21,380 bases of DNA, taken from the IMG/VR virus record IMGVR_UViG_3300028275_000298, positions 1 through 21,380 of that record; one strand, written 5' to 3'. The notes beneath the pieces were generated by a model, which saw nothing but the letters and a program-made list of their open reading frames with translations, ran no database searches and was not told the origin of the DNA. Positions 468 through 21,380 of this stretch are shown piece after piece. Numbering within the stretch: the stretch's first letter is position 1; each line of letters starts with the position of its first letter. The position numbers and the translations under genes were made by a program. The stretch comes from a virus.

Positions 468-755
468 ATGTTAAAACTATTAGCAAAACTTTTTGGTCGC
501 AAGTCCGCAGAACAACCAGTTCCAGAACAAGCGCCATACAAAGTAGAAGCACCAAAAGCACCGGCAGAAGTAGAAGTAAGTGCTGCAAAATTTGAAGGCG
601 AATTGAAGAGCCCGTCTGAACTTCAAGTAGAAGTTTTACAAGCTCAAAAAACAGAAGCCAAAAAGAAAGCACCTGCTAAAAAGAAGCCGGCGGCTCCTAA
701 AAAGGAAGGTGCAAAGAAAGGCGGTCGTAAGCCTAAATCAACGACCCAGGCTTAA
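468..755 (+). CDS. Lysine/alanine/proline-rich basic protein, histone H1 tail-like
   Basis: A 95-residue protein. The start at 468 is preferred over the in-frame ATG at 435 because AAGGAG at 454-459 is correctly spaced for it. The N-terminus MLKLLAKLFGRK is short and amphipathic. The middle (about residues 20-60) is rich in Glu, Pro, Ala and Val. From about residue 65 the chain is dominated by Lys, Ala and Pro in AKKKAPAKKKPAAPKK-type repeats ending GGRKPKSTTQA. Such tails resemble the C-terminal domain of histone H1 and bacterial H1-like proteins, so nucleic-acid binding is a reasonable inference, but there is no folded domain to prove it. It is one of only two plus-strand genes before 13.5 kb, and its 3' end overlaps the end of the convergent UvdE gene by 18 bases. 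Confidence 0.7.
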   Translation: MLKLLAKLFGRKSAEQPVPEQAPYKVEAPKAPAEVEVSAAKFEGELKSPSELQVEVLQAQKTEAKKKAPAKKKPAAPKKEGAKKGGRKPKSTTQA

Positions 756-1763
756 TGCCTGTTGGTAGAGATCAAAACTAGCTAAGTTCTTAGCTTTCGA
801 TTCGCACATAATGTCGAACTGATCTCTAAAGCTCAGTGCCCATTCGTTAACATCTGTATTCCAATAGAAGTTAGAGTGAGCTCTGAGCTTTGCCTTTTTG
901 TGTCCGGATTCTAAGAGGGTCGGAAGATCGGGACGTAATCCAGTGGTATGACCAGGGAGTACATCTTCGCGAGACACACTATAATGGCAAGTAGGACGCA
1001 CACCGCGCCAACTATCAATAACACGTTTAACGCGGTCATCGCTAGGGTTGATATACTCACCCGAGTTAATCCAGTGATGGTGTATGTCAAGTACAATTGG
1101 AACGATATCAGCAAGTTCCAAACAGGTGTCCAAATTGTGTGTAATTTCTTCATTTTCGATTGTGAGTGTGTTTCGTGCTTCGGGAGTTAAGCGGCCCAAA
1201 ACAGCACGTATTCCATTGGGGCCTCGTCTACCAGCGATATGAACGTTGATCTTAAAGTCTTGAAACGCTTGGCCAAATCCCATCCAGCGAGCCATGTCCA
1301 CATGATATTCAAATTCCTCTATGCTGCGAGTTACAATATCATCTGACTCAGACGCCAACACGCAAAACTGACCAGGATGCATACTAAGCCGAACACCAGC
1401 CTGACGACCCAGATCTCCAATGGCTCTAAATCCTTTTTCGCAATAGGCTCGTACATCGGGATTCCGCCAATACCCGCGCCAACTTGGCTCAGTGTATACA
1501 GGAAGAATATCGCTACTGAGTCGTACCATTCTAAGATTTTCATCAAGTGTACCTACCCTCTCAACAAGTTTACGAGTTGCTTCGATGTTCTGTACCATTA
1601 GGTCCCAGAGCTTTTGTTCGGCAACATCTCGTGTCTGTCTATTTAACCAAGCAACGGTGGTTGCTCCGGTATTGTAGATTTTACACTCGTCTTTAGGTTT
1701 AATGCCGTCTACTTGATCGGGACGGTCAATCCATTTGCAGGCAAAGCCAATACGTTTATTCAT
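738..1763 (-). CDS. uvdE: UV damage endonuclease UvdE/UvsE
   Basis: A 341-residue protein, close to the usual UvsE length (about 300-350). Family motifs of this metal-dependent TIM-barrel endonuclease appear in order: GFACKW at the start, RLSSDILPVY near residue 85, RLSMHPGQFCVL, FKINVHIAGRRG, LTIENEE, IVLDIHHHW, CHYSVSRED, and KLRAHSNFYW close to the end. The His, Glu and Asp residues in these blocks are the expected metal ligands. Members nick DNA 5' of UV photoproducts, giving an alternative to photolyase or nucleotide excision repair. The start at 1763 (MNKRIGFACKW) fits the family N-terminus. There is no Shine-Dalgarno sequence; a perfect sigma70 promoter at 1770-1798 places the expected transcription start at or beside the ATG. 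Confidence 0.93.
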   Translation of the reverse strand: MNKRIGFACKWIDRPDQVDGIKPKDECKIYNTGATTVAWLNRQTRDVAEQKLWDLMVQNIEATRKLVERVGTLDENLRMVRLSSDILPVYTEPSWRGYWRNPDVRAYCEKGFRAIGDLGRQAGVRLSMHPGQFCVLASESDDIVTRSIEEFEYHVDMARWMGFGQAFQDFKINVHIAGRRGPNGIRAVLGRLTPEARNTLTIENEEITHNLDTCLELADIVPIVLDIHHHWINSGEYINPSDDRVKRVIDSWRGVRPTCHYSVSREDVLPGHTTGLRPDLPTLLESGHKKAKLRAHSNFYWNTDVNEWALSFRDQFDIMCESKAKNLASFDLYQQALSLGR

Positions 1764-1769
1764 AACACT

Positions 1770-1798
1770 ATTATACAATCTTTATTGCCAGTTGTCAA
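1770..1798 (-). promoter_or_regulatory. Perfect-consensus sigma70 promoter for uvdE
   Basis: On the minus strand the sequence reads TTGACA (1798-1793), a 17-base spacer, then TATAAT (1775-1770). Both hexamers match the consensus fully. The -35 box lies inside the last codons of the glycosyltransferase gene. Six bases separate TATAAT from the uvdE ATG, so the expected +1 is the A of the ATG or next to it. Confidence 0.85.
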
Positions 1799-2486
1799 CA
1801 ATAACAGGATCTTCAACGTCATGCGGATTTGGATCTCCGTGAAAAACTAAAATTGAACAATCGTTTGGAATGGGTGGATTTTTAATTGTTTTAAATTTTC
1901 TTGGCATGGTTCCAAAAGAAATCTCTGTACGATCTCTAATCTCCCATTTGTAACTCATAATAAATTGATCGGGCCAAAAAATAATTCTACCTTTTGCTAC
2001 TTGGAAAATCCAATCTTGATCTCCGTGTAGTTGTTGTGCCTTATTCATATTATTTTTGAATACGGTATAAATGTCTGGATGTTGTCCGGCTATCCAACTC
2101 ATTACTGAGCTATTTAAAATTTTCCAACCAGGGTTAAATTTTCTGTTAAAATCTCTTATACCTAAAAATTCATTTTTAGTATAATCTTTAACAAGTTTAT
2201 CTATATTATTAACTATTACAACATCTAAGTCGAGATATAAAATCCTGCCATTTAATCCAAGACTAGGGTCAAACATATGAACTTTGTGCCACCATTTTTT
2301 TGTATATCCTTGATCGGACAGGATAATATTTCTAACACCTTCAATTGGGTGTTGATCGTCTGTTAGGCAAACAAATTCATAAGGAATTGTTAAGTGTCGA
2401 GCAACCATGTTCCGGAGTCTTTCTACATACTCCGGACCATACTTATTACCAAAACGAACACATAGAACGGTTAGTTTAGATTCCAT
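1782..2486 (-). CDS. GT-A type glycosyltransferase, phage family
   Basis: A 234-residue protein. Its N-terminus (TVLCVRFGNKYGPEYVERLR) and the central block GRILYLDLDVVIVNNI, with a D-x-D metal-binding motif near residue 85, indicate a GT-A fold enzyme using a nucleotide-sugar donor. The C-terminal SILVFHGDPNPHD block resembles the terminal loop of similar phage and LPS-type transferases, where a His helps bind the metal. The acceptor is unknown; modified phage DNA, surface glycans or protein are all possible. The start overlaps the end of queD by 11 bases, suggesting translational coupling, and the last codons contain the -35 box of the uvdE promoter. No signal peptide or membrane segment is seen. 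Confidence 0.7.
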   Translation of the reverse strand: MESKLTVLCVRFGNKYGPEYVERLRNMVARHLTIPYEFVCLTDDQHPIEGVRNIILSDQGYTKKWWHKVHMFDPSLGLNGRILYLDLDVVIVNNIDKLVKDYTKNEFLGIRDFNRKFNPGWKILNSSVMSWIAGQHPDIYTVFKNNMNKAQQLHGDQDWIFQVAKGRIIFWPDQFIMSYKWEIRDRTEISFGTMPRKFKTIKNPPIPNDCSILVFHGDPNPHDVEDPVIVDNWQ

Positions 2487-3027
2487 CTCTATAAAAAACT
2501 GAGCGGCTCTTAGGAGTTTCCCACCATTCGATACGCTGAACGGTGACTCCTAAGTCTTTCATTTTTTCTTGTACCAGTTCCGCCATCCACGAACTAAGAT
2601 GTTCTGAAGTAGGAACAAAATTTACAACCATAAACCCTTCATAGTACTCATACTCGGGTGTGTTTGGTTCGAGTCCTGTAAGATCCAAATGAAAGCCTGC
2701 TACGTGCCCGGTGCCAGGAACCATTACTGGAATTAATCCCCTGTCTCCGATAATTTTATTGTACAGCGGATCGCTTGAGTCAATAATAAATTGATGGTCA
2801 ATGTACTCGTTAATCCATTTCTTTAGCCATTCCAAATGTCTAAAGTCAGTAACCATGCCAGTTCTATCTAGCTCGGGTGCTGTAAGGAACACTTGCATTT
2901 TGCCTTCGTGTCCGTGTAAATGACGACAAGCGCATTTTAGGTCAGCGGCATATTCGCCGTTTAGTGTTTGTGTATGAACTCTGTGACCGTAGCAGAATTC
3001 AAAAGTTTTGTCAATGATCCAAGTCAT
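2476..3027 (-). CDS. queD: QueD-like 6-carboxy-/6-pyruvoyl-tetrahydropterin synthase
   Basis: A 183-residue member of the T-fold PTPS/QueD family. QueD converts dihydroneopterin triphosphate to 6-carboxytetrahydropterin on the way to 7-deazaguanines. Visible features: GHRVH with zinc ligand H15; C34-R-H-L-H38-G-H40, giving the catalytic Cys and two more zinc His in the same C-x3-H-G-H spacing as known QueD; FVPTSEHLSSW (PTSE block) near residue 140; and WWETPKSRSVFY (ET block) near the end. It is longer than a typical 120-residue QueD because of an insertion in the middle (about residues 85-125), common in phage versions. The start at 3027 is preceded by AAAAGGGCAAGAG. A T4-type late promoter lies at 3119-3126. 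A QueC-like gene occurs 17 kb away at 19803. Confidence 0.85.
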   Translation of the reverse strand: MTWIIDKTFEFCYGHRVHTQTLNGEYAADLKCACRHLHGHEGKMQVFLTAPELDRTGMVTDFRHLEWLKKWINEYIDHQFIIDSSDPLYNKIIGDRGLIPVMVPGTGHVAGFHLDLTGLEPNTPEYEYYEGFMVVNFVPTSEHLSSWMAELVQEKMKDLGVTVQRIEWWETPKSRSVFYRDGI

Positions 3028-6164: not shown

Positions 6165-7352
6165 TTAGGCAAGTTTTAAAAGAATAACTTCTTCGTTGAT
6201 ACGTCCGTTGAGCTTAATATCAACTGCTTTAATATCTTCTAAAAACTTACGTAGAGCTACTTTACCAGCTGCTTTAAACTCTTTAAGTTGTTCCTCGGGC
6301 TTGCGCAGAGTCTTTTGTACACTCTTAAACTCGTCATAGCCAGTAATCGAAGTACCTTTTACGCCAAGTTCTGAAAACTCACCAGCAACATATTTGCCTA
6401 GTTTTCGACTCTTAGTATTAAAGACCCACAACTCTTTAGAGCCAATAATATCCGCAGGATTAATACTAACCAATTTAAGTTTATCATCTTGCTTTAGATA
6501 TTTGAGTTTAGCAACAAGTTTATCTGCACTTACCGCTTTCTTAGCACGTGGTTTACGATTAACTTTTGCTTCCTGCATTAGCATATCGCAGGCACTGAGG
6601 ATTTCGTGATAAAATGCAAGAATCTTTTTAATTTGAGCTTTGCTAAAATGAGCGTATGCTTCTTTAAGCTGTTCACATTTTCCTTCTTGAAGCTCTACGT
6701 ACTCGTCGTGCTGACGTTGATAAAAATCTTTAATAATACGAGCATGAGCGGCCTTGGCCTGCTTACCCCTTAGCAAATTCATAAGTTTAAATGCTTTAGG
6801 ATCAAATGCTTCTGGATCCATAGAAAATGATTCAATGGCGTCTTCAATTTCTTCGGTCATTGCAAGACTAGTTTCTCGAACACGTTCTTGGATAGAAACT
6901 ACAGGTATAGTTTCTTTTTTCTCAACAACTTCTTCGTCTTCGGTATCGTCCTTGCCCTCGGCAATGACTCTATTGATAGCAGTCTCCAACCATTTAGCAG
7001 TATCACGACCTTCGTTAAATCCTGCGTGTACCTCTGGCATGCCTCGTAGCAGACAGGCAGCAATACCACCCATGGTACCTGAACAGCGATTGTCTTTAGT
7101 CTTTTTAAATTCAGCAACGGTTTCTGAATTCCAGCCTTGGAGTTTCATCCATTCTACAACTTTAGGTTTTAGATCTTTACCGCTGTACTCAAGACGATAG
7201 TATTCCATAGAGCGACGAAAATGAGCATTAAACTGATCCGCACCCCAATCTTCAGCACCGTCCCATCGAGGGCTCAAATCACGAGTTGATTTAGTACGAT
7301 GTTCGATTACTTGTTTTTTGGTAACGCGAGTTTTGGTTGCTGCTTTAGCCAT
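6165..7352 (-). CDS. Hypothetical phage protein, Lys- and Glu-rich, 395 residues
   Basis: Not recognised as a named family. The N-terminus is basic (MAKAATKTRVTKKQVIEHRTK), followed by a Trp-rich segment (RWDGAEDWGADQFNAHFRRS, YYRLEYSGKDLKP, WMKLQGW). Around residues 85-110 comes NRCSGTMGGIAACLLRGMP. Residues about 130-150 are very acidic, and 155-280 are largely helical with a likely coiled-coil character. Near residue 270 a short basic patch (RKPRAKKAVSADK) precedes a C-terminal domain with strands such as KELWVFNTKSRKLGKYV. Size, charge pattern and mixed domains suggest a nucleic-acid-associated or virion-associated protein, but this is a guess. It has its own sigma70-type promoter (7385-7413) and a good AAGGAG RBS, so it is probably expressed early or throughout infection. 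Confidence 0.7.
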   Translation of the reverse strand: MAKAATKTRVTKKQVIEHRTKSTRDLSPRWDGAEDWGADQFNAHFRRSMEYYRLEYSGKDLKPKVVEWMKLQGWNSETVAEFKKTKDNRCSGTMGGIAACLLRGMPEVHAGFNEGRDTAKWLETAINRVIAEGKDDTEDEEVVEKKETIPVVSIQERVRETSLAMTEEIEDAIESFSMDPEAFDPKAFKLMNLLRGKQAKAAHARIIKDFYQRQHDEYVELQEGKCEQLKEAYAHFSKAQIKKILAFYHEILSACDMLMQEAKVNRKPRAKKAVSADKLVAKLKYLKQDDKLKLVSINPADIIGSKELWVFNTKSRKLGKYVAGEFSELGVKGTSITGYDEFKSVQKTLRKPEEQLKEFKAAGKVALRKFLEDIKAVDIKLNGRINEEVILLKLA

Positions 7353-12092: not shown

Positions 12093-12632
12093 TTAAATTG
12101 CTAGATTAAAATTGATAGCACATCGGGGACCGTTTTTAGGAATGCCGCCACCGTGCTTATGATTACCATCGAATAATACAACTCTACCTTTCTTAGGTGT
12201 TACACGTTGAACAACATTATTATTGTTATCAAAGAATACGGTATCCCCGTCGCTGTCATTAACGTAGTATAACACAACTAAGTGAGGATAGGGCAAGTCT
12301 GTATGAGGGTCATAGTATTCTTTATTAGTTTTATACGGCATTAAAACAAAAATCCGTCCAACTAATATATCTTTAAATTGAATATTTTCTTTTGCAAATA
12401 CCAGCTGAGGAATTAATCCAAAGTTTGGCAGATGTGTCGAAATAGTGTTTGATGATTTAAGAACATGAACAAAACTAAGCGGAGCGAAAGATTCTTCTCT
12501 TGCGGTAAGTTCATATTTGCATTTTAGGTCTACTATCGGATGCATCATTTTATCTCCGCTGAGACCTAAAATACTTAATTCAAAGTAATCCTGAAGGTGT
12601 TCAGGAATTACATCATCTAATACTTTTATCAA
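12093..12632 (-). CDS. 2-oxoglutarate/Fe(II) oxygenase, prolyl-4-hydroxylase-like
   Basis: A 179-residue protein. The double-stranded beta-helix iron motif is H110-x-D112 (YYDPHTDLPYPHLVVLYYVND) and H160 (NHKHGGG), with R170 (GPRCAINFNL) positioned to bind 2-oxoglutarate. The block DGDTVFFD and KKGRVVLFDGNHKH are typical of small phage P4H-like oxygenases. The substrate is not known: protein, nucleobase or metabolite are possible. The start is TTG at 12632 overlapping the TGA of the upstream gene (TTGA), with GAAGAAG as RBS; no ATG occurs until residue 29, and the N-terminus MIKVLDDVIPEHLQDY matches the usual family start. Confidence 0.82.
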   Translation of the reverse strand: MIKVLDDVIPEHLQDYFELSILGLSGDKMMHPIVDLKCKYELTAREESFAPLSFVHVLKSSNTISTHLPNFGLIPQLVFAKENIQFKDILVGRIFVLMPYKTNKEYYDPHTDLPYPHLVVLYYVNDSDGDTVFFDNNNNVVQRVTPKKGRVVLFDGNHKHGGGIPKNGPRCAINFNLAI

Positions 12633-13147
12633 TTTTGATCTTCTTCCGGTTCATCAAAACATAAACTTTCTAGAGTTTTATAATGTTCGTATGCCTTTTT
12701 CAAAGCTGCAAACTTTTCAAGTTTTTTTGGATCTGGAACAAGGATTGATAATCTATCTTCCATTCTTTTTAAAAACTCTTTTAGGCTTACATCACCTAAT
12801 TTAATGTCTGCTTCTTTATCTAATTGTATTCCGTTTCCATCAAAGTTAACCCTAGGAGGCGAAACATTTAGCGTACCATAACACGTTGAACCTGTGTTCA
12901 TAGTATAACAAGATCCAGTCCAGGTATTGGTATATGATATACCACTAGTACTTGGCAAAGTTATTGTGGTGATCGGGGCTGTTGTTAACGAATCTAAAGA
13001 AGAAATTGTTATAGTGTCAGTGCCGCTATAAGATAAATCATAGATTGATTGAGCAGCACCAACAGCGCCGGGATCTAAAACAACATCTTCGGATATACTT
13101 TCTATTTCTTCCGAGCTAATTGCTTTAAGTTGATCGGCGGTTAACAT
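12629..13147 (-). CDS. Structural-type hypothetical protein with C-terminal helix
   Basis: A 172-residue protein. The start at 13147 (MLTADQLKAISSEEIES) has AGGAAAA upstream; an earlier in-frame start at 13201 would overlap the end of the histone-like gene. Residues 20-110 are Ser/Thr/Ile-rich, with strands such as GTDTITISSLDSLTTAPITTITL and a Cys-containing TGSCYTMNTGSTCYGTLNV. Residues 110-172 form a helical segment, ADIKLGDVSLKEFLKRMEDRLSILVPDPKKL, that looks like the C-terminal coiled-coil of small phage structural proteins. A minor virion protein is the best guess. It is downstream of the tRNA-like and histone-like genes. Confidence 0.55.
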   Translation of the reverse strand: MLTADQLKAISSEEIESISEDVVLDPGAVGAAQSIYDLSYSGTDTITISSLDSLTTAPITTITLPSTSGISYTNTWTGSCYTMNTGSTCYGTLNVSPPRVNFDGNGIQLDKEADIKLGDVSLKEFLKRMEDRLSILVPDPKKLEKFAALKKAYEHYKTLESLCFDEPEEDQN

Positions 13148-13148
13148 G

Positions 13149-13343
13149 TTATTTTCCTTTAGCTTCTTTACGAGCGTTCTTTTCCTCTGTAATTTCTCCA
13201 CGACGTGCTTTGACTAATTTAGCAACTTCTTGTAATGCTTTACGTGCTCTTGTTCCTGCTGCACCGTTACCTGATGTAAATTTTGCATCTTCTGCTAAGA
13301 ATGCTTCGAATTGAGCTTTTAATTGTTCTACGGTATTTGACAT
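13149..13343 (-). CDS. Histone Hc1-like DNA-binding protein
   Basis: A 64-residue basic protein. It starts MSNTVEQLKAQFEAFLAEDA, then KFTSGNGAAGTRARKALQEV, AKLVKARRGEI and TEEKNARKEAKGK. The GNxAAGxRARKxLxxxxKLxxxxRxEI pattern matches short histone H1/Hc1-like proteins found in chlamydiae and many marine bacteria. These proteins bind DNA non-specifically and compact it. A longer in-frame reading to 13466 is rejected because it would run through the tRNA-like gene; the start at 13343 has AAGGAAA upstream. It sits directly behind the tRNA-like gene and may be co-transcribed from the promoter at 13483-13511. Confidence 0.75.
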   Translation of the reverse strand: MSNTVEQLKAQFEAFLAEDAKFTSGNGAAGTRARKALQEVAKLVKARRGEITEEKNARKEAKGK

Positions 13344-13362: not shown

Positions 13363-13476
13363 TGGTGTGGTCGGTAGGTTTCGAACCTACAAGAACTGCG
13401 GGCTACGCCCATCGTCCCGGCCCCTTTCCAAACTATGGGTTTGGCGGGAGGTCTGCCATATTCCACTCACGACCAC
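13363..13476 (-). tRNA. tRNA-like gene, encoded CCA, unusual enlarged middle; isotype uncertain
   Basis: On the minus strand the acceptor stem GTGGTCG (13476-13470) pairs perfectly with CGACCAC (13373-13367), followed by discriminator A and encoded CCA (13365-13363). The T arm is GTAGG-TTCGAAA-CCTAC, perfect. A D-loop-like AGTGGAATATGGCAGAC follows the acceptor strand and resembles class II (Leu) tRNAs. The middle is about 25 bases longer than normal. One fold has anticodon stem TCCCG/CGGGA enclosing a 25-base loop with an inner CCAAA/TTTGG hairpin, then a GGGC-GTA-GCCC variable arm. A second fold uses CCAAA-CCCATAG-TTTGG as the anticodon arm (CAT anticodon). Neither has U33. The 114-base length, the odd loop and the CCA end make it either a diverged working tRNA, a pseudo-tRNA, or one with an insertion in the anticodon loop. 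Confidence 0.7.
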
Positions 13477-13539: not shown

Positions 13540-14526
13540 ATGAATATCAATTTTCAAGAAATACCATTTCAAAATATAACAAGGTTTGGACAACGAACTA
13601 TGTTGTCCGATAATTTATTTTCCGTTAGTTGGATTCTAGGAAGGTTTTGCAATTACAAATGTAGTTACTGCTGGCCTTATGCTAGATCGGATAAGTTAGA
13701 CTATCAAGAGTTTAAGGTTTACACAAATGCTATCGATGAAATAAAAAGACAGGCAAGAAAAAATGGTTTTGATAAGTTTCATTGGTCGTTCAGCGGTGGG
13801 GAACCCACCGCATATAAGCAACTTTTAGATTTGGTAAAATATATTGATGACGGTCCGGGGACACCTTATCAGAGTGTTCATATGACTACAAATTTAAGTC
13901 CGGGTAGCAAATGGTGGAAAACTTGGTGCTCCAATACCGAAATGCTTCAACGGAGAAGTATTACGGCAAGTTATCACGCTGAATTTGCCAAAGAACAAGA
14001 GTTTGGAGACAAATGTCTACAATTAATGTATGAACTAGTTCATGTTACCGTTAATCAAGTAATGGTACCGGAGAATTTTTTTGAGCTATATGAGAGGTGT
14101 GAAAGATTACATAACAGAGGTATTAATGTAACTCTAAAACCTCAAAGTGATCCTACCGCTAGCCATGTTGTTGACGGATATACTGAAGAAATGATTCACC
14201 TTATGCAAACAGGATTCCCTCAACGTGCCAACGGTGAAGATGTTTATCAGATAGCATTATATGATGCAGACGGAAAAGAATATCTTTTTGATCAAGCAGA
14301 ACGGTTTAATGCGTTTGGATTTAATAAATTTCAAGGATGGAATTGTAATGCAGGATATCAAAGTGTTATAATAAGAGGTAATGAAGTCAAAAGAAGTTAT
14401 AGTTGCCACGATGCTCCGTTGGGAACATTAACAGATGGCTTTGAACTTATTACTAAACCTAGAGTTTGTGTAACTCCTACGTGTGTTAGTTCGGCAGATA
14501 GTAAGATACCAAAACAAAAATTATGA
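13540..14526 (+). CDS. Radical SAM protein rSAM1 with C-terminal Cys cluster
   Basis: A 328-residue protein. The radical-SAM cluster motif is C37-NYK-C41-SY-C44-WP (CX3CX2C), and S85-G86-G87-E88-P89 supplies the SAM-binding GGEP motif. The C-terminal third holds further Cys: GWNCNAGY, SYSCHDAP and RVCVTPTCVSSADSKIPK, suggesting an auxiliary iron-sulphur cluster of SPASM/twitch type. The chemistry and substrate are unknown. It is paralogous to the next gene (shared CNYKCxYCWP, GW-x-C-x-x-G and a Cys-rich end). No Shine-Dalgarno sequence precedes the ATG; a CTTAAATA octamer at 13522-13529 could be a late-type promoter giving a five-base leader. It is the first gene of string A; its stop overlaps the next start (ATGA). 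Confidence 0.8.
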   Translation: MNINFQEIPFQNITRFGQRTMLSDNLFSVSWILGRFCNYKCSYCWPYARSDKLDYQEFKVYTNAIDEIKRQARKNGFDKFHWSFSGGEPTAYKQLLDLVKYIDDGPGTPYQSVHMTTNLSPGSKWWKTWCSNTEMLQRRSITASYHAEFAKEQEFGDKCLQLMYELVHVTVNQVMVPENFFELYERCERLHNRGINVTLKPQSDPTASHVVDGYTEEMIHLMQTGFPQRANGEDVYQIALYDADGKEYLFDQAERFNAFGFNKFQGWNCNAGYQSVIIRGNEVKRSYSCHDAPLGTLTDGFELITKPRVCVTPTCVSSADSKIPKQKL

Positions 14527-15527
14527 ATTTAGTATCTATAGATAACAATTGGCGAGATGAAGTCTTAAACATAGACTTGAATCTTGGCAATTATTGTAAT
14601 TACAAGTGTTGGTACTGCTGGCCAGACTCAAATGCAGGCACATATAAATTTCCTAACATAGAAGTGATAAAGAAAAATATGTCTCATTTCTTAAATCATT
14701 ATCTAAAGAACACAAATAAAAAAGTTTTTGATATACATTTCTGTGGAGGGGAGCCCACCCATTGGAAAGACTTACCAGAGTTTGTTAAGTTTTTAAAAGA
14801 AAATTTTAATTGTCTAATTTCAATGACCTCCAACGGTTCGAAAAAAATTGAATGGTGGAAAAATAATGCTAGATATTTTGATAGAATTCATATGAGCTGT
14901 CATCGAGAATATGTAGACATAGAACAATATAGAGATTTATGTGATTATCTGTATGATCAAAAAGTAGTTGTAAGCGTATCAGTTATGATGGATCCTACTG
15001 CGTGGGATCAATGTGTTGGGATGGTTGAATATCTTAAACGTAGTCGTAGAAAATGGACTATTCGTTATGTTGAGCTTATTGGAAAAACAATAGACTATAC
15101 TGCTGATCAAAAAAAATTATTGTCTAAACACAGAGCAAGGCGAGTAAGTCTATGGTTCTTTTGGCGTAATAACAAATATTATCGAAGCATAGTAACCGCC
15201 AAAGACAATACAGGTAAAAAATATAGATTAGAAGAAAACGAAATTTTATTAAAACGATTAAACAACTTCTATGGATGGGAATGTAGTTTAGGAATTAATT
15301 GGGTTCATATCTCAATGGCAGGAGATATCACCGGAACTTGTAATCAATTTTTGTACGGAAATGATTTTCATTACAATTTATACGACTTAGATTTTGATAA
15401 AAAGTTTAATCCAATAGTACAATCAGTAATATGTGCCAAAACTTCTTGCGTATGTAATATAGAAACAAATATGCCAAAGAAAAAAATAAACAATACTAAT
15501 AAAGTGATACCAATTTATGAAAATTGA
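14523..15527 (+). CDS. Radical SAM protein rSAM2, paralogue of rSAM1
   Basis: A 334-residue protein. Motifs are C25-NYK-C29-WY-C32-WPDS and F73-C74-G75-G76-E77-P78. The C-terminal part has GWECSLGINWVH, GDITGTCNQFLYG and VICAKTSCVCNIETNMPKKK, the same layout as rSAM1 with one more Cys in the last group. The centre (residues 150-215) is lysine- and arginine-rich, which might contact an anionic substrate such as RNA, DNA or a nucleotide. It overlaps rSAM1 by 4 bases and the following methyltransferase by 11 bases. The pair could act on the same substrate in succession or as a heterodimer. Confidence 0.8.
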   Translation: MNLVSIDNNWRDEVLNIDLNLGNYCNYKCWYCWPDSNAGTYKFPNIEVIKKNMSHFLNHYLKNTNKKVFDIHFCGGEPTHWKDLPEFVKFLKENFNCLISMTSNGSKKIEWWKNNARYFDRIHMSCHREYVDIEQYRDLCDYLYDQKVVVSVSVMMDPTAWDQCVGMVEYLKRSRRKWTIRYVELIGKTIDYTADQKKLLSKHRARRVSLWFFWRNNKYYRSIVTAKDNTGKKYRLEENEILLKRLNNFYGWECSLGINWVHISMAGDITGTCNQFLYGNDFHYNLYDLDFDKKFNPIVQSVICAKTSCVCNIETNMPKKKINNTNKVIPIYEN

Positions 15528-16131
15528 TCTAGAACATTTACACTACTGGATGTGTGCTATTCGTGAAAGCGAAAATCCTATGAGGACTCTTGATGCGTTC
15601 TGGTCAGGACAATTAAAAAGCAAAGAATGGTTAATAGAAAATCTAGTCTATTACATCTATCCTGAGCGTAATAAAGAATTAGACTTTCCTCTTTCTGTGG
15701 ATATTCACGGTGGATGGGTTGGTGTACTATCAAGTATGCTGTTTCAAAGTGCTATTCCTATTAAAAATATTCGTAGCATTGATATAGATCCTAGTTGTGA
15801 ATCTATTGCTACTATGATGAATAAAAAAGAAGAGATAGAAGGGCGTTTCAGAGCAGTCACAGCAGATATGTGCGCCATACGCAGTGACGCCGACATTATC
15901 ATAAACACCAGCTGCGAACATATTACACAAGATCAATACGACCTATGGTTAAGTGGTCATCCTCAGGATAGTTTATTAGTTCTTCAAAGTAATAATTATG
16001 ACATTCCAGAACACATTCGAATTGCCAAAGATCTAGAAAACTTCAAACAACAATGCGGAATTAATGTATTGTGGGCAAGAGAATTAGAGCTACCGTTGTA
16101 TAAAAGATTTATGGTGATAGGTAAAAAATAA
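15517..16131 (+). CDS. Class I SAM-dependent methyltransferase-like protein
   Basis: A 204-residue protein. The Rossmann signature is SVDIHGGWVGVLSSML near residue 60 (motif I, with a DxHGGW in place of the usual GxGxG) followed by IRSIDIDPSCESIA (acidic end of strand 2 that binds the SAM ribose). ADIIINTSCEHITQDQYD (about residues 125-142) is motif IV. These features fit small phage class I methyltransferases. The substrate is unknown. Its position between rSAM2 and rSAM3, with overlapping ends on both sides, argues for a role in the same pathway. The altered motif I leaves a small chance that it binds SAM in another way or is degenerate. Confidence 0.72.
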   Translation: MKIDLEHLHYWMCAIRESENPMRTLDAFWSGQLKSKEWLIENLVYYIYPERNKELDFPLSVDIHGGWVGVLSSMLFQSAIPIKNIRSIDIDPSCESIATMMNKKEEIEGRFRAVTADMCAIRSDADIIINTSCEHITQDQYDLWLSGHPQDSLLVLQSNNYDIPEHIRIAKDLENFKQQCGINVLWARELELPLYKRFMVIGKK

Positions 16132-17219
16132 TGTTTAAATTTAATGAGCTAAAGCAGCTTCATTTAGAAATATCAAACAATTGCCAAGCAAGCTGTCCTA
16201 TGTGTACTAGAAATATTCACGGCGGTGTTGAGAATCCCTTGATCAAAATTGAATCTTGGACCTTGGATAGATATAAAAATATTATCAATAAAGAAGTTCT
16301 TGATCAAATTTCTTCTATATATTTTTGTGGCAACTACGGAGATCCGTTGTTAAATTCTCAATTGTTAGAAATGATTGAGTATACCAGCTCAACTAGTCCA
16401 AATATTGAATTAAGGATTCACACAAACGGTAGCCTCCGAAGCAAATCTTGGTGGGCAAAGTTAGCAATGGTATTGCCCAAGAACCATAAGGTAATATTTG
16501 CCATAGATGGACTAGAAGACACTCAGGCAATTTATCGAGTTGGCACAGACTATGAAAAGATTATAGAAAACGCTCGAGCATTTATACTTGCCGGAGGCAT
16601 TGCTGAGTGGGCATTTATTAGATTTAAACACAACGAACATCAGGTTGAACTAGCTAAACACAGAGCTCATTCTCTAGGCTTCAAAGAATTTACTATGAAA
16701 GATAGTTCTAGGTTTTTATTAGATGCAAAATTTCCTGTTTACAATAAAAACAAAGAAACAATATATCATTTAGAACCTAGTCAATATACAGAAATAAAAT
16801 TTATTGATAAACGAGTAATTGACAACTATAAAGACATAGTAAAGAAAACTGAAATTAAATGTTATGCACTCAAAATGAAAGAGGTATACATTAATGCCCA
16901 GGGGCACGTATTCCCTTGTTGTTGGTTATCTATGATTCCCTACCAACCACCAGACGAGTTATCAGAATTAACCGCAGTAAGAAACGATATGTTTCATCAA
17001 TACCAACAGCTTGTGGAAAGTCTAGGCGGAATTGATAACCTAGACGCAGATAAAAAATCTTTAAAAGATATTATTGATTCTAAAGAATATCAATCTGTTT
17101 GGGACTACTACTGGAATGAAAATAAATTGATTACCTGTGTAAGAACCTGCGGAGTCCAACCGGAGTTATTCTCTACTCCACAGGATCAATTTATCAGTAA
17201 AACTAAACTAGAGTCCTAA
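16131..17219 (+). CDS. Radical SAM protein rSAM3 with SPASM-like C-terminus
   Basis: A 362-residue protein. Cluster motif C18-QAS-C22-PM-C25 (CX3CX2C). The GGEP motif is replaced by GNYGDP (FCGNYGDPLLN). The middle block VIFAIDGLEDTQAIYRV is where radical SAM enzymes such as SPASM members carry the ribose/SAM contact. C-terminal Cys blocks are IKCYALKMKEVYINAQGHVFPCCW and ITCVRTCGVQPE, typical of SPASM auxiliary clusters. It is strongly similar to the convergent rSAM4 (shared FKHNxHQxELA and CYA...VFPCC). SPASM enzymes often modify peptides, but this pair could equally act on small molecules. Its start overlaps the methyltransferase stop (TAATG). Confidence 0.83.
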   Translation: MFKFNELKQLHLEISNNCQASCPMCTRNIHGGVENPLIKIESWTLDRYKNIINKEVLDQISSIYFCGNYGDPLLNSQLLEMIEYTSSTSPNIELRIHTNGSLRSKSWWAKLAMVLPKNHKVIFAIDGLEDTQAIYRVGTDYEKIIENARAFILAGGIAEWAFIRFKHNEHQVELAKHRAHSLGFKEFTMKDSSRFLLDAKFPVYNKNKETIYHLEPSQYTEIKFIDKRVIDNYKDIVKKTEIKCYALKMKEVYINAQGHVFPCCWLSMIPYQPPDELSELTAVRNDMFHQYQQLVESLGGIDNLDADKKSLKDIIDSKEYQSVWDYYWNENKLITCVRTCGVQPELFSTPQDQFISKTKLES

Positions 17220-18254
17220 TAGGCCTTCGATAAGGCTATTGTTTTCTGAACACTTGCCACAGATTGCAGCACATAGGGGATTTCTGCCCTGTGACATTGT
17301 CAAAGCCCAGGACTCTTTGATCCTATTAAATGTCTTAGAAGATAAAATATCTTCAAGTTTATTTCGATATAGACTTATTTCGTTCTTGTTAAAATCATTT
17401 TTAACTGATTTGATCCAATTATACTTTTCTGGAAGAAGGTCATCGCTGAGTAAAAATATACTAGCGGTATGACAACAGGGAAAGACCAATCCATCTGCTG
17501 AAATATACAAGTTTCTTTCTTCGATAGCATAACATTTGATGTTAACAGAATTAAGATATTCTTCAGTCTTATCCATTCTGACAAAATCTAATCGTTGTCC
17601 CTGATGTGCAAACCTAGGATCGTCACTGGGCTCAACAGCATTGTTTGTGTTTTGAGGTTGGTTTAATAGATCTCTATGAGAAATTTTAATTTTAAACTGA
17701 CTGAATCCCATATCCTTGCTCATCTGCTCAGCTAGTTCAGCCTGATGTTGATTATGTTTAAATGGAATAAACTGCCAAGTACTGGTTGCTCCTGTGCTGA
17801 TGTATGCTCGTGCATTCTGCATCAGCTTATTCCATTTAACATTAACTCTATAGATATGATTTGTGTCTTTTAATCCGTCTATGGCAAATATTACATTACC
17901 GTTGGTGCCTATGATATTTCCTAATTCTTGCCACCATTGCGGTTGTTGAACACTACCATTGGTATAAACTTCTAAAAATATATTAGGATTTTGTTTTCGA
18001 AACCATTTAAGAATGTTTAACAGGTCTTTGTTCATTGCGGGTTCGCCAATGTTTCCGCTGAAGGATGCAATTTCTAACGTGGCTGCAACTTCTTTAGGAA
18101 AGAATATATCAAAGAAACTTTCTTTAAGATGGACTTGATTGAAAAAACTATAGTCACCGTTTTGGCTTTCTCTCATACAATGCGGACATCTAGCATTACA
18201 ATAAGATGAGGGTTCTATATCTAATATTTTTAGAGGTTGAGGGTAGAAAGTCAT
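17208..18254 (-). CDS. Radical SAM protein rSAM4 with SPASM-like C-terminus
   Basis: A 348-residue protein. Cluster motif C19-NAR-C23-PH-C26, with GNIGEP (FSGNIGEPAMN) at the GGEP position. Blocks VIFAIDGLKDTNHIYRV and FKHNQHQAELA match rSAM3. The C-terminus has IKCYAIEERNLYISADGLVFPCCH and NPLCAAICGKCSENNSLI, giving SPASM-like Cys. It is the second gene of string B and overlaps the oxygenase stop (ATGA). Its 3' end overlaps the 3' end of rSAM3 by 12 bases, so the two paralogues are encoded tail to tail on opposite strands. Confidence 0.83.
   Translation of the reverse strand: MTFYPQPLKILDIEPSSYCNARCPHCMRESQNGDYSFFNQVHLKESFFDIFFPKEVAATLEIASFSGNIGEPAMNKDLLNILKWFRKQNPNIFLEVYTNGSVQQPQWWQELGNIIGTNGNVIFAIDGLKDTNHIYRVNVKWNKLMQNARAYISTGATSTWQFIPFKHNQHQAELAEQMSKDMGFSQFKIKISHRDLLNQPQNTNNAVEPSDDPRFAHQGQRLDFVRMDKTEEYLNSVNIKCYAIEERNLYISADGLVFPCCHTASIFLLSDDLLPEKYNWIKSVKNDFNKNEISLYRNKLEDILSSKTFNRIKESWALTMSQGRNPLCAAICGKCSENNSLIEGLLGL
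17218..17245 (+). terminator. Terminator-like hairpin at the end of string A
   Basis: Just at the rSAM3 stop codon, AATAGGCCTT (17218-17227) pairs with AAGGCTATT (17232-17240), with one bulged G and a CGAT loop, and is followed on the plus strand by GTTTT. This fits a weak factor-independent terminator for the plus-strand operon. It is located inside the rSAM4 coding end. Confidence 0.45.
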
Positions 18255-18919
18255 ACAGGTCTAAGTGATACTATAAATCCTTTGTCTTGTAATTCTTTGA
18301 TCTTGGAATCTAAGATAGGAGGATTACAATTTAATAACACTTCTTTTTCGCTTACCTTTTCAAATCCTGTGATATATTTTGATTTAATTGTTTTATTAAA
18401 GAACGACATTAGTGTGGTGTATGACTCTTGTTTCCAATCATAGTCTCCACCTTCAATTTTTAACAAATATCCCGGGCTTGTAAACTTGGGCAATGCTACT
18501 CTTATGTTCAAATGAATACGAGGCCTTGCACCAAAGTTTGCGGCCACGTGCATCTTACTGGTATCCATATGCCAGACTTCACCGTCTACAGGCAAATGAT
18601 ATAGTTTATTGTCGTCAAGATCGATAAGATAAGAATTTGGATTAGTTGTTATTGCTAAATGAATGCGATCATCTGGGTCAGCGTGTGCTGTGTAAGACTC
18701 TGCAGAATTTAATTTAAGCAATCTTGCTTCGCCTACATTCCCTATCACTGACAGGGCATTTCCTATTGGAGTTCCTACATACTCTGGTTTTGTCGTATAA
18801 GGTCCGTTAAGGAGTTTACCAGTTGTATAGTTTAAGGTTAGGCTCTTTTCAAAATCTAAAGACAATACCTGTTCTATAATTGGATCAATATCTAATTTAA
18901 TATTCAATTTTGTCAGCAT
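18251..18919 (-). CDS. Aspartyl/asparaginyl beta-hydroxylase-like 2OG/Fe(II) oxygenase
   Basis: A 222-residue protein. Iron ligands H79-x-D81 (YTAHADPDDRIHLAI) and H124 (MHVAANFGARPRIHLNI), with R134 in position to bind 2-oxoglutarate, match the AspH/cupin-like layout, including RIHL near the first motif and H-x6-x-RxxLN in the second. A WHMDTS step precedes H124. Substrate hydroxylation is likely; the target could be a side chain on a peptide or a small molecule made by the neighbouring enzymes. The start at 18919 is chosen over a longer in-frame reading to 19021, which would overlap the divergent gene. It lacks a Shine-Dalgarno sequence; CATAAATA lies four bases upstream. Confidence 0.75.
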   Translation of the reverse strand: MLTKLNIKLDIDPIIEQVLSLDFEKSLTLNYTTGKLLNGPYTTKPEYVGTPIGNALSVIGNVGEARLLKLNSAESYTAHADPDDRIHLAITTNPNSYLIDLDDNKLYHLPVDGEVWHMDTSKMHVAANFGARPRIHLNIRVALPKFTSPGYLLKIEGGDYDWKQESYTTLMSFFNKTIKSKYITGFEKVSEKEVLLNCNPPILDSKIKELQDKGFIVSLRPV

Positions 18920-18928
18920 AAAATATTT

Positions 18929-19813
18929 ATGTGCTACTATTACTCGGTTAAATATCTTGTGGACAGAATAAAAACAGCAGCAACTTACGATAATAAATGG
19001 TTGGAAATTGAACGACCACAACCTCTATCGGATCAGAGGATTGAAGGTTTAATTCAAGAAGTATTAAGTGGTAAATTAGAAAAAGATATTAGTGATCAAG
19101 TCTACACAAATTTTAAAACAGAGTGCAAAGAATGGTTACTTAAATCCAAATTAAACACTCTTAAGGGTCTTGATACCTTTAATCGTACGGATATAATTAT
19201 TGGCTGCACACAATTTATAGACAATATCTATATGCAAGGACCTGTACAGGTTCTTCGCAATGACTATAGATATCACCAACGACTAGGATTAGCGTATGTT
19301 AAAGATGTGGGCTCGCTGATTCCTGATATTCCTTTAATCGTAGCAATGCCATTTCCCAGCATTGGTGCTCCACATCCGGATATGGAGGAAATATTATATG
19401 AATGCAAAATTAAAAACATTGCGGTACACGTTGATGGCGCTTGGATCAGTTGCTGTCGTGATATTAGTTTTGACTTTAGTGATGAAGTTATTAGATCCGT
19501 TGGTATCAGCCTTAGTAAAGGTCTTGGTCTAGGATGGAACAGAATAGGTCTACGTTGGACCAAAGATACCCGAGCAGACAGCATTAGTATTATGAATGAT
19601 TTTAATATGAATAATCGTGCCCTGGCAATGATCGGTCTACATTTTATACGTAATTTAGAATCCGATTATCTATGGAATGCTCACGGAAAACGATATTATA
19701 AGGTATGCAGCGATTTTAATCTAACACCGACTAACTCGATTTATCTAGCATTACAAGATAATAGACCAGTTGGTCTGAGCCCGTTGATAAGGTATTTAGA
19801 AAATGCAACTTGA
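18929..19813 (+). CDS. PLP-dependent fold-type-I enzyme (aminotransferase/decarboxylase-like), short
   Basis: A 294-residue protein. The pattern VHVDGAWISCC (D169, binding the PLP pyridine nitrogen), then ISLSKGLGLGWNRIGLRW with lysine K197 as the Schiff-base candidate and R205 near it, is the core of PLP fold-type-I enzymes. The usual families are about 350-430 residues; this protein is shorter, mainly because the small C-terminal domain is reduced. An aminotransferase, lyase or decarboxylase role is all that can be said. It starts 9 bases from the divergent oxygenase start, and its stop overlaps the QueC-like start by 11 bases. The start at 18929 has no Shine-Dalgarno sequence and is less certain than its frame. 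Confidence 0.72.
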   Translation: MCYYYSVKYLVDRIKTAATYDNKWLEIERPQPLSDQRIEGLIQEVLSGKLEKDISDQVYTNFKTECKEWLLKSKLNTLKGLDTFNRTDIIIGCTQFIDNIYMQGPVQVLRNDYRYHQRLGLAYVKDVGSLIPDIPLIVAMPFPSIGAPHPDMEEILYECKIKNIAVHVDGAWISCCRDISFDFSDEVIRSVGISLSKGLGLGWNRIGLRWTKDTRADSISIMNDFNMNNRALAMIGLHFIRNLESDYLWNAHGKRYYKVCSDFNLTPTNSIYLALQDNRPVGLSPLIRYLENAT

Positions 19814-20540
19814 TACGATAAACATAGACGGAGTAGAAATACCGTTTGATTTTACGTGGAAGAACATTGCTATCAGTCTTAGTGGTGGTGCTGATAGTGC
19901 ATTATTAGCATATCTACTATGTGACATTGCCCGTAACAATGACACGACAATTCATATTATCAATCATATACGCTGTTGGAAAACTAAACCTTGGCAACAA
20001 TATGATGCTGAACACGTATATCAATGGTTATTCCAACACTTTCATAACACTAAATTTAATCGTCATACAAATTTTATAGCACCTGAATTAGAGTATGGCA
20101 ATATAGGACCAACGTTAACTGATGAATACGGAAAACGAGTCAGCGGTGACAACATTCAACAACGTGCCTATGCAGAATTTATCTGTAACAAATACAATAT
20201 AGATGCATATTATAATGCGGTAACTCGCAATCCTAGAAATCTAGACCTTGGAGGTATGCGGGAACGTGACATTGATCCAACAGAAGATAATCAACATCTA
20301 ACACTGATGAAACATATGGACCGTTGGGCAATCCATCCGTTTAGATTTGTAGAAAAAAACTGGGTCATAGGCCAATACCTACGATTAGACATTGTGGATC
20401 TACTTGGCATCACTCGCAGTTGTGAAGGTGAGTTTGAAGGTACTGATTACAAAACATACGAACCAGGACAATATGTTCCTGTCTGTGGTAAATGTTTTTG
20501 GTGTAAAGAAAGGAAATGGGCAATTGAGCAATCAAAGTAA
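19803..20540 (+). CDS. QueC-like PP-loop ATP pyrophosphatase (7-cyano-7-deazaguanine synthase-like)
   Basis: A 245-residue protein. The N-type ATP PP-loop is S25-L-S27-G28-G29-A30-D31-S32. The C-terminal CGKCFWCKERKWA, plus an upstream Cys in TRSCEGEF, gives the four zinc Cys of QueC (C...CGxCxxCxxR). QueC converts 7-carboxy-7-deazaguanine to preQ0 using ATP and ammonia. The overall shape agrees, but the middle (AVTRNPRNLDLGGMRERDI, QHLTLMKHMDRWAIHPF) is unusual, so a related amidating or adenylating PP-loop role on another substrate is possible. It forms string C with the PLP enzyme and rSAM5; coding ends overlap on both sides. The co-occurrence with QueD at 2476-3027 supports a 7-deazaguanine link. 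Confidence 0.75.
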   Translation: MQLDTINIDGVEIPFDFTWKNIAISLSGGADSALLAYLLCDIARNNDTTIHIINHIRCWKTKPWQQYDAEHVYQWLFQHFHNTKFNRHTNFIAPELEYGNIGPTLTDEYGKRVSGDNIQQRAYAEFICNKYNIDAYYNAVTRNPRNLDLGGMRERDIDPTEDNQHLTLMKHMDRWAIHPFRFVEKNWVIGQYLRLDIVDLLGITRSCEGEFEGTDYKTYEPGQYVPVCGKCFWCKERKWAIEQSK

Positions 20541-21380
20541 AACATTCTGTATGCACCCTTTCACAGGGCTGGCCACACGAGAGGATGGCGCCATACAGGT
20601 CTGCTGCCGCAGCCATCCAATTGGTTTTATACAAAAAGAAACCCTAGAAGAAGTGTGGAATAATGACACAATGAAACGTATTCGTAAGTCAGTACTTACT
20701 AACATACGCCCACCAGAATGCGAACCCTGCTTTAGCCTAGAAGATCAAGGCGTCGAATCCCTGCGACAACGTCATATAAGCGGTGTAATTCCTGAAGCTA
20801 GGGTCAACTTATACCCTAACGCCTTAACTGCTTTACGCGACGATTATACAATGCCCTTTGAAATTCCTACAATGGAGTTAAAATTAAACAATTTGTGTAA
20901 CCTTAAATGTCGTATGTGCCACCCCGGGGACAGCACAAGTTGGAACGATTGGGATGTAATAAAAGAGTATTACAAAGATTCAGGTAAGGTTATCTTTGAT
21001 CTAGTAGAGGAACACGGATTAGAGAAAAAGCCGTTGCTGGACAAGTTTGAAGACAATCCTAATTGGTGGGCAAGTTTAGAAAAGAATATTCCCTACTTTA
21101 GACGAGTAGAGTTTGCCGGCGGCGAGCCCCTAATGGATCCGCAACACTATCGCATATTAGATATGCTTGCTCCATATGGCCATCAAATTGAAATCAAGTA
21201 TGCAACCAATTTGAGTATGCTGGGAAAAAGAAATCGCACTATCTGGGAATACTGGCCTAAGTTTAAAAGTGTAGCAGTTAATGTCAGCATTGACGGTATG
21301 GGCTCAAGCTATGAATACATTCGTGGCAATGCTTCGTGGGCAGAACTTATCAATAATGTCAAGCAGATACAGACCATTCC
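20524..21380 (+). CDS. Radical SAM protein rSAM5 with N-terminal twitch-like Cys module, partial
   Basis: Runs off the window; 285 residues are visible. The likely start is TTG at 20524, with AGGAAA (20511-20516) upstream; the first ATG at 20551 would cut off a conserved Cys. N-terminal twitch-like motif: C9 (KTFCMHPF), C27-C28 (AIQVCCRS), C66 and C69 (PPECEPCFSLE). The radical-SAM cluster motif follows at C125-NLK-C129-RM-C132, with FAGGEPLMDP near residue 200 and VNVSIDGMGSSYEYIRG near residue 260. A twitch/SPASM-like module before the core instead of after it is typical of a group of marine phage and bacterial radical SAM proteins of unknown product. It overlaps the QueC-like gene by 17 bases, so it belongs to string C. 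Confidence 0.8.
   Translation, partial: MSNQSKTFCMHPFTGLATREDGAIQVCCRSHPIGFIQKETLEEVWNNDTMKRIRKSVLTNIRPPECEPCFSLEDQGVESLRQRHISGVIPEARVNLYPNALTALRDDYTMPFEIPTMELKLNNLCNLKCRMCHPGDSTSWNDWDVIKEYYKDSGKVIFDLVEEHGLEKKPLLDKFEDNPNWWASLEKNIPYFRRVEFAGGEPLMDPQHYRILDMLAPYGHQIEIKYATNLSMLGKRNRTIWEYWPKFKSVAVNVSIDGMGSSYEYIRGNASWAELINNVKQIQTI

Follow-up and report, generated by a model that had tools for sequence, protein, structure and literature searches.

The viral record IMGVR_UViG_3300028275_000298, which was analysed as a whole (21380 bases; hereafter the window), carries at positions 13540–21380 a string of nine closely packed genes, designated A to I, five of which encode radical S-adenosylmethionine (rSAM) enzymes. 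These genes are part of a real, co-inherited system. A core of A, C and D, often joined by an rSAM gene of the type with an N-terminal twitch (N-twitch; gene I in the window), recurs in over 100 viral contigs, in which order and accessory genes shift, and this core shares ancestry with a set of genes on the chromosomes of Bdellovibrionota. With regard to its product, we favour, at a probability of roughly 40%, a heavily modified or amino-acid-substituted sugar, built by the core as the decoration of a glycan on the surface of the infected cell (or of the virion).

Relatives were collected by a search with gene B, which gave 44 viral loci, and with the pattern of an RNA flanking gene A, which gave about 120 more, most of them containing A. 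Open reading frames (ORFs) were called by a simple procedure, and the majority of the records compared are metagenomic fragments. The loci fetched by the RNA pattern formed a sample blind to rSAM content, with 45 non-redundant A loci, 24 of them with 6 kb of sequence downstream. C was no more than 3 kb from A in 42 of the 45; in the 6 kb past A (n=24), D was found in 23, N-twitch in 16, the F10 family in 12 and B in 11. Neighbouring genes on the same strand were spaced by -30 to +20 nt in 79% of cases. An earlier note on this DNA, made from the sequence alone, held that recurrence of at least four members across unrelated phages would support a system; such recurrence was found in many viral contigs, for A, C and D and often N-twitch and B. 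The single pathway which it proposed fares less well. The co-inherited core agrees with it, but order and accessories (G, H, F, E, halogenase, amidinotransferase-like and B12-rSAM genes) vary, and we therefore describe a core combined with exchangeable tailoring enzymes, not a single fixed pathway.

Genes with a PF04055 domain number 2–19 in 31 of 32 related viral records and lie mostly within a single block of 20–30 kb (in 14 records the count was 3–12, and a record of 281 kb reached 19; 17 of 18 further records matched). This clustering exceeds chance. The 281 kb record also contains a second rSAM cluster (L171, G015:142000-161999; NTwi76 types), about 80 kb from the first.

In the relatives the island spans 26–36 kb and encodes 8–13 rSAM proteins: 13 in about 34 kb (G015), 8 in 36 kb (G016), 9 in 30 kb (G012), 11 in 29 kb (G007) and 10 in 26 kb (G001). 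Its left end consists of the tRNA-like RNA and gene A, and its right end of N52, a calcineurin-like phosphoesterase gene named by sequence pattern. Since empty and occupied sites are both seen, this is a gain/loss island. In L123, L167 and L049 backbone genes of the N53, N52 and N41 types come straight after the RNA, and in the five genomes listed above the island is inserted at that very position; in G025 it is inverted and at another location. The window, the end of which falls mid-island, inside the fifth rSAM gene, carries roughly the first quarter of such an island.

Accessories in other islands include B12-binding rSAM proteins (one KedN5-like), a Tes/TrsS-like rSAM protein, a flavoprotein of the Trp halogenase family (E 3e-88), a class III aminotransferase, glutathione peroxidase, a nucleoside diphosphate (NDP)-sugar epimerase, an AspH-like enzyme and a kinase-like family. 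SGNH-type, amidinotransferase-like and additional 2-oxoglutarate (2OG)-type accessories are putative, having been assigned by motif reading or sub-threshold matches. Flavoproteins of the Trp halogenase family lie in or near the islands of L173, L175, L179 and L182 (family N79) and of L012 and L034 (F57).

A chromosomal counterpart in the Bdellovibrionota

When genomes were scanned with a profile of A, 26 close homologues were found, nearly all of them in Bdellovibrionota, and in several loci (e.g. L204, L207 and L210) homologues of D, N-twitch and C adjoin the chromosomal A. Phage and Bdellovibrionota proteins are 45–54% identical for A, 53–60% for N-twitch and 30–40% for C and D, the chromosomal D homologues giving 37–40%. 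In the trees the phage sequences of A fall into a single clade (100/99), with two Bdellovibrionota sequences beside it; those of C likewise form a single clade (97/94), and those of N-twitch nearly do, with L044 standing apart. The core of the phage island and the chromosomal gene set have a common ancestry.

Among 144 genomes of one class, the Bdellovibrionia, A was present in 15 and C in 30. C occurred in 13 of the 15 genomes with A and in 17 of the 129 without it (Fisher p 9e-9, a value which serves as a guide only because shared phylogeny inflates it), and the two genes were frequently on separate contigs. This co-occurrence links the two genes functionally, whether or not they are neighbours. 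The chromosomal sets have fewer accessories than the phage islands, are often unlinked, and are without the tRNA-like RNA. The commonest Pfam family near chromosomal A is Glycos_transf_2 (15 of 103 neighbours); in 6 of 12 genomes a glycosyltransferase of this family (GT2) is encoded within 10 kb of A, where about 1.1 would be expected from the 8–23 GT2 genes per genome (p 3e-4).

Chromosomal loci with C and without A showed no clear context, one of them having rSAM genes together with a protein containing a GATase_7 domain. Five A loci, which are rich in rSAM genes and group together (L192, L198, L209, L211 and L214), are on contigs of metagenome-assembled genomes labelled Rickettsiales, Gammaproteobacteria, Chloroflexi and Acidimicrobiaceae; these are possibly misbinned viral contigs.

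The genes of the window and the RNA at the island edge

The nine genes are arranged in three strings, A-B-C-D and G-H-I on the plus strand and E-F on the minus strand (Table 1). Gaps within the strings are -12 to +10 nt, in keeping with the overlapping stops and starts described earlier. The count of five CX3CX2C rSAM proteins of at least three types is likewise borne out by ORFs, motifs and domains. The motif is found in A, B, D, E and I, all of which belong to the rSAM superfamily as defined by CX3CX2C within a partial TIM barrel of the PF04055 type, the fold of A being seen in its AlphaFold2 (AF2) model. PF04055 scores are above cut-off for A, B, D and I; E falls slightly below (cut-off 29.5 bits) but exceeds that for SPASM (PF13186). 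The three types are A/B, with a C-terminal Cys cluster, the SPASM-like D/E, and I, with its N-terminal twitch.

Table 1. Features of the window by position
Feature	Position	Strand	Assignment
UvdE, GT8-like and QueD genes	738–3027	-	Consecutive genes for a UvdE-type UV endonuclease, a GT8-like protein (by resemblance) and a QueD/PTPS homologue
Backbone gene	6165–7352		28–42% related to PA5oct-like jumbo phages and Sinorhizobium phages
Second oxygenase gene	12093–12632	-	2OG-Fe(II) oxygenase (PF13640; weakly FlmC-like)
Conserved gene	12629–13201	-	Conserved protein that looks like a virion protein
tRNA-like RNA	13363–13476	-	114 nt, beside gene A; acceptor, D, variable and T arms; encoded ACCA; no anticodon loop
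A	13540–14526	+	Radical SAM, C-terminal Cys cluster (twitch/SPASM-like); PF04055 44.6 bits
B	14523–15527	+	Radical SAM, paralogue of A (25% identity, full length); PF04055 43.9 bits
C	15517–16131	+	SAM-dependent-type Rossmann enzyme by motif; core partner of A
D	16131–17219	+	Radical SAM/SPASM-like; PF04055 30.7 bits
E	17208–18254	-	Radical SAM/SPASM, paralogue of D (33% identical); SPASM 26.3 bits, PF04055 24.4 bits
F	18251–18922	-	AspH-like 2OG/Fe(II) oxygenase; PF05118 (Asp_Arg_Hydrox) 26.7 bits
G	18929–19813	+	Fold-type I pyridoxal phosphate (PLP) enzyme, aminotransferase-like, by AF2 model
H	19803–20540	+	PP-loop ATPase/ligase with C-terminal Zn-type Cys cluster, by motif
I	20524–21380	+	N-terminal-twitch radical SAM, truncated at contig end; TTG start inferred

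Gene A is the most conserved of the island; in 23 diverse copies CX3CX2C, four C-terminal Cys residues and a VSSADSKIPK motif are all invariant. The best structural matches to its AF2 model (pLDDT, the model's own confidence score, 82) are BlsE, anSME and MoaA. BlsE (PDB 7vob) has the top Z score (15.4, with a root-mean-square deviation of 3.7 over 266 residues), while anSME and SkfB each reach 14.1. A viperin-type antiviral role was rejected, A and B scoring 35.9 and 41.5 bits with model NF038283 against a cut-off of 180. The identification of C as a class I methyltransferase proved weaker than had been stated: Rossmann/SAM-like motifs (GGWVG...DIDP...INTSCEHI) are conserved, but profiles from Pfam, NCBIfam and PDB gave no matches. 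Its bacterial homologues match spermidine-synthase-like families weakly (E about 0.08), and C is perhaps a candidate methyl- or aminopropyl-transferase.

The AspH-like oxygenase of the earlier note is F, which surpasses the PF05118 cut-off of 22.6 bits and has the iron ligands H80-x-D82 and a downstream His. Its PLP enzyme, G, had no matches to Pfam or library models; the AF2 model, of modest confidence (pLDDT 68.5), matches aspartate and aromatic aminotransferases in the PDB (Foldseek E 3e-7), and the PLP-binding Asp (D169) and catalytic Lys (K197) of fold-type I are invariant. H had been called a QueC-like PP-loop enzyme. SGGADS and C228/C231/C234 are indeed invariant in 12 copies, but matches to TilS_N, ATP_bind_3 and QueC are all weak and sub-threshold. 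A queuosine-type role was rejected on account of this weak resemblance and of the location of QueD outside the island. Protein I belongs to NF033640 despite its truncation (243.7 bits; curated cut-off 170; 405.7 for the L010 paralogue), and its full-length orthologues are 67–85% identical; its start was placed at 20524 because the first twitch Cys is then included. PDB profile searches with the C, G, GT-like, SGNH-type and 2OG-type families produced nothing usable.

Of 217 kb of island sequence, about 98% is covered by ORFs of at least 90 amino acids, and none of the 30 small ORFs in the gaps is conserved between islands. The absence of a small gene resembling the precursor of a ribosomally synthesized and post-translationally modified peptide (RiPP), noted earlier for the window, thus holds across all of this sequence, and a RiPP with an encoded precursor was rejected. 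Peptide-maturase equivalog models scored far under cut-off with A, B, D, E and I.

The tRNA-like RNA marks the island edge. We found 83 unique copies in 143 loci (e.g. L105:3026-3125 and L114:8036-8135), all with A as discriminator and an encoded CCA, the search pattern itself having specified CCA and the final two pairs of the acceptor. In 47 diverse copies 95.1% of cells are paired and double changes occur at 10 pairs. Their covariation score of 0.247 compares with 0.132 for shuffled alignments and was reached by 0 of 500 shuffles. In place of the anticodon arm, with the 7-nt loop on a 5-bp stem that defines a tRNA, there are UUCG- or GNRA-capped hairpins or longer rods. ARAGORN did not report the RNA, and the Rfam tRNA model gave at most 26.5 bits against a threshold of 29. 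A class II tRNA with an intron was rejected since the arms of copies of 96–119 nt end in tetraloops.

Gene A adjoins the RNA in 77 of the 97 copies with enough flank, the other 20 contigs having no A nearby. The frequency of the RNA at A was counted in 21 independently fetched A loci, those fetched by the RNA being unfit for this purpose; it was present at 14 and absent from 7. As it is also absent from the Bdellovibrionota chromosomes, the idea that the system always requires the RNA was rejected. The RNA is a separate, widespread one of phages and seems new to description.

The second oxygenase gene adjoins thyX and lies outside the nine-gene string. The conserved protein beside the island in this ThyX-type backbone has 68 homologues, its N-terminal part being variable and rich in Gly, Ser and Thr and its C-terminal part conserved. 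As to the host, which was sought through cultured relatives of the window, the A/C/D core was found in no cultured phage.

What the island may build

We favour glycan decoration because GT2 genes lie near chromosomal A, the fold of A is nearest to that of BlsE, and the accessories are of a sugar type, with an NDP-sugar epimerase, class III aminotransferase, B12-rSAM and Trp halogenase among them. This view accords with proposals made earlier for host-recognition clusters of phages (PMC7029224) and for cyanophage tailoring clusters (PMC7824862). In such a pathway the rSAM proteins A, B, D, E and I would act on a sugar, either linked to a nucleotide or bound in a glycan, in a series of C-H oxidations, epimerisations, dehydrations or decarboxylations. 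The transfer of a methyl or similar group from SAM would fall to C, amination of a keto position to G and hydroxylation to F, while H would use ATP to form an amide or amidine. The SGNH-type enzymes, B12 methylase, Trp-halogenase-type flavoprotein and amidinotransferase-like enzyme of other islands would diversify the product. Frequent exchange of tailoring genes would vary a surface antigen, which would fit the shutting out of competing phages or altered contact with the host. The earlier note had named a modified nucleobase, a surface sugar or an amino acid as the product; of these the sugar is now preferred and the nucleobase is least supported.

Several points weigh against decoration of a glycan. 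Half of the chromosomal A loci tested have no GT2 gene within 10 kb. Few proven glycosyltransferases are found inside the phage islands, and a GT-like family (N75) preceding A in the basal phages is without Pfam, PHROG or PDB support. Peptide maturases (anSME, SkfB, SuiB) match A just 1–2 Z units under BlsE. The 2OG, AspH, halogenase, amidinotransferase-like and kinase-like genes may just as well serve to modify free amino acids or the side chains of proteins. Peptides and metabolites, too, are substrates of these enzyme classes, so that the evidence for a glycan role is no proof.

It is doubtful, by comparison, that the product is a diffusible small molecule (a modified amino acid, or an aminoglycoside- or nucleoside-like compound) which aids the host in competition or inhibits rivals. 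The mixture of a BlsE-like rSAM, a KedN5-type B12-rSAM, a Trp halogenase and a class III aminotransferase resembles that of an antibiotic cluster, and a metabolite was one option put forward for a cyanophage halogenase/2OG cluster (Iyer et al. 2021, PMC7824862). Against this, no carrier-protein, non-ribosomal peptide synthetase, exporter or resistance genes were recognised among the island proteins examined, the rapid turnover of accessories is what is expected of antigens, and the chromosomal copies have GT2 genes nearby.

We also consider it unlikely that the enzymes modify proteins post-translationally, whether tail fibres and other virion proteins of the phage or surface proteins of the host. 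In that case side chains would be altered by each of the rSAM/SPASM, AspH, B12-rSAM methylase, halogenase-like, amidinotransferase-like and kinase-like enzymes. SPASM/twitch rSAMs are often directed to peptides, and A is structurally like anSME, SkfB and EpeE; the islands include AspH-type enzymes and a kinase-like family; and one backbone has tail-fibre-like genes within 10 kb. The F7-type backbone, however, has no tail-fibre gene nearby, the islands encode no conserved substrate protein, RiPP recognition element or leader, and the core is also chromosomal, near glycosyltransferases.

That there is no single pathway, and that independent auxiliary genes gather at a hypervariable hotspot, appears improbable. 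Accessory content and order do vary widely and phages without the island exist, but the A-C-D(-N-twitch) core hardly varies, its genes overlap in frame, and they co-occur in bacteria even when unlinked. Modification of nucleic acid, either as hypermodified bases of phage DNA or in tRNA, is more improbable still. QueD-like and ThyX genes in the same window, the weak QueC/TilS resemblance of H and the tRNA-like RNA at the edge would point this way; yet many islands are without H, QueD is 10 kb off and outside the island, the chromosomal core has no RNA, and a DNA-glycosylating or base-activating gene was not found in the island. Least probable is that the RNA is an aminoacylated, CCA-ended carrier, the aminoacyl group of which is remodelled by the rSAM, PLP and PP-loop enzymes and then transferred to glycan or protein; if true, the chemistry of the island would run on an amino acid held by an adjacent non-decoding RNA.

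That the core is defined and has chromosomal relatives in a phylum which is partly culturable makes the question of the product testable. Should it be a surface glycan, the antigen-diversifying chemistry of phages would extend well beyond glycosyltransferases; should it be a metabolite, large phages would be an overlooked source of natural-product enzymes.

Comparison with known systems

Clusters of rSAM genes in phages have been a puzzle to annotators since CP220 (2010). The Campylobacter phages CP220 and CPt10 (Firehammervirus) have 11 and 12 rSAM genes of unexplained function, and an interchangeable cluster of five such genes with a putative glycine amidinotransferase (PMC2853527). The present island is similar in having many rSAM genes in an exchangeable block, and D of the window matches CP220 at 28% identity; an amidinotransferase-like gene (sub-threshold PF02274) is present in some related islands, not in the window. 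Identity to the window proteins is, however, just 20–28%, and neither a tRNA-like element nor a Bdellovibrionota counterpart was reported for those phages. Among 50,697 phage records, the A, B, C, G and H core types had no clear orthologues.

In pelagimyophages a hypervariable host recognition cluster contains glycosyltransferases and rSAM cassettes and was proposed to change the host surface (PMC7029224); there the rSAM genes are a minor addition, about 27% related, and position and core differ. The Aeromonas giant phage 332-Vera has eight rSAM genes inside its structural gene cluster, the function of which was not discussed (PMC12390700). It resembles our phages in the clustering of rSAM genes in a large phage, with no common core shown. 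For the cyanophage cluster mentioned above, with a halogenase, 2OG oxygenases and carbamoyltransferases, the proposed roles are decoration of capsular polysaccharide or synthesis of a metabolite; it is alike in being a natural-product-like tailoring set in large phages, but its core enzymes differ, and radical SAM is unmentioned in the main text of that paper. BlsE, the radical SAM decarboxylase of blasticidin S and a sugar-nucleoside enzyme, has its fold in common with A at 13% identity, which does not support a shared reaction.

Phage modules rich in rSAM genes were thus known earlier and none has been explained; judged by sequence, none appears to be a close relative of this island. The chromosomal A/D/N-twitch/C sets of the Bdellovibrionota, for all their differences in accessories, linkage and RNA, have a homologous core.

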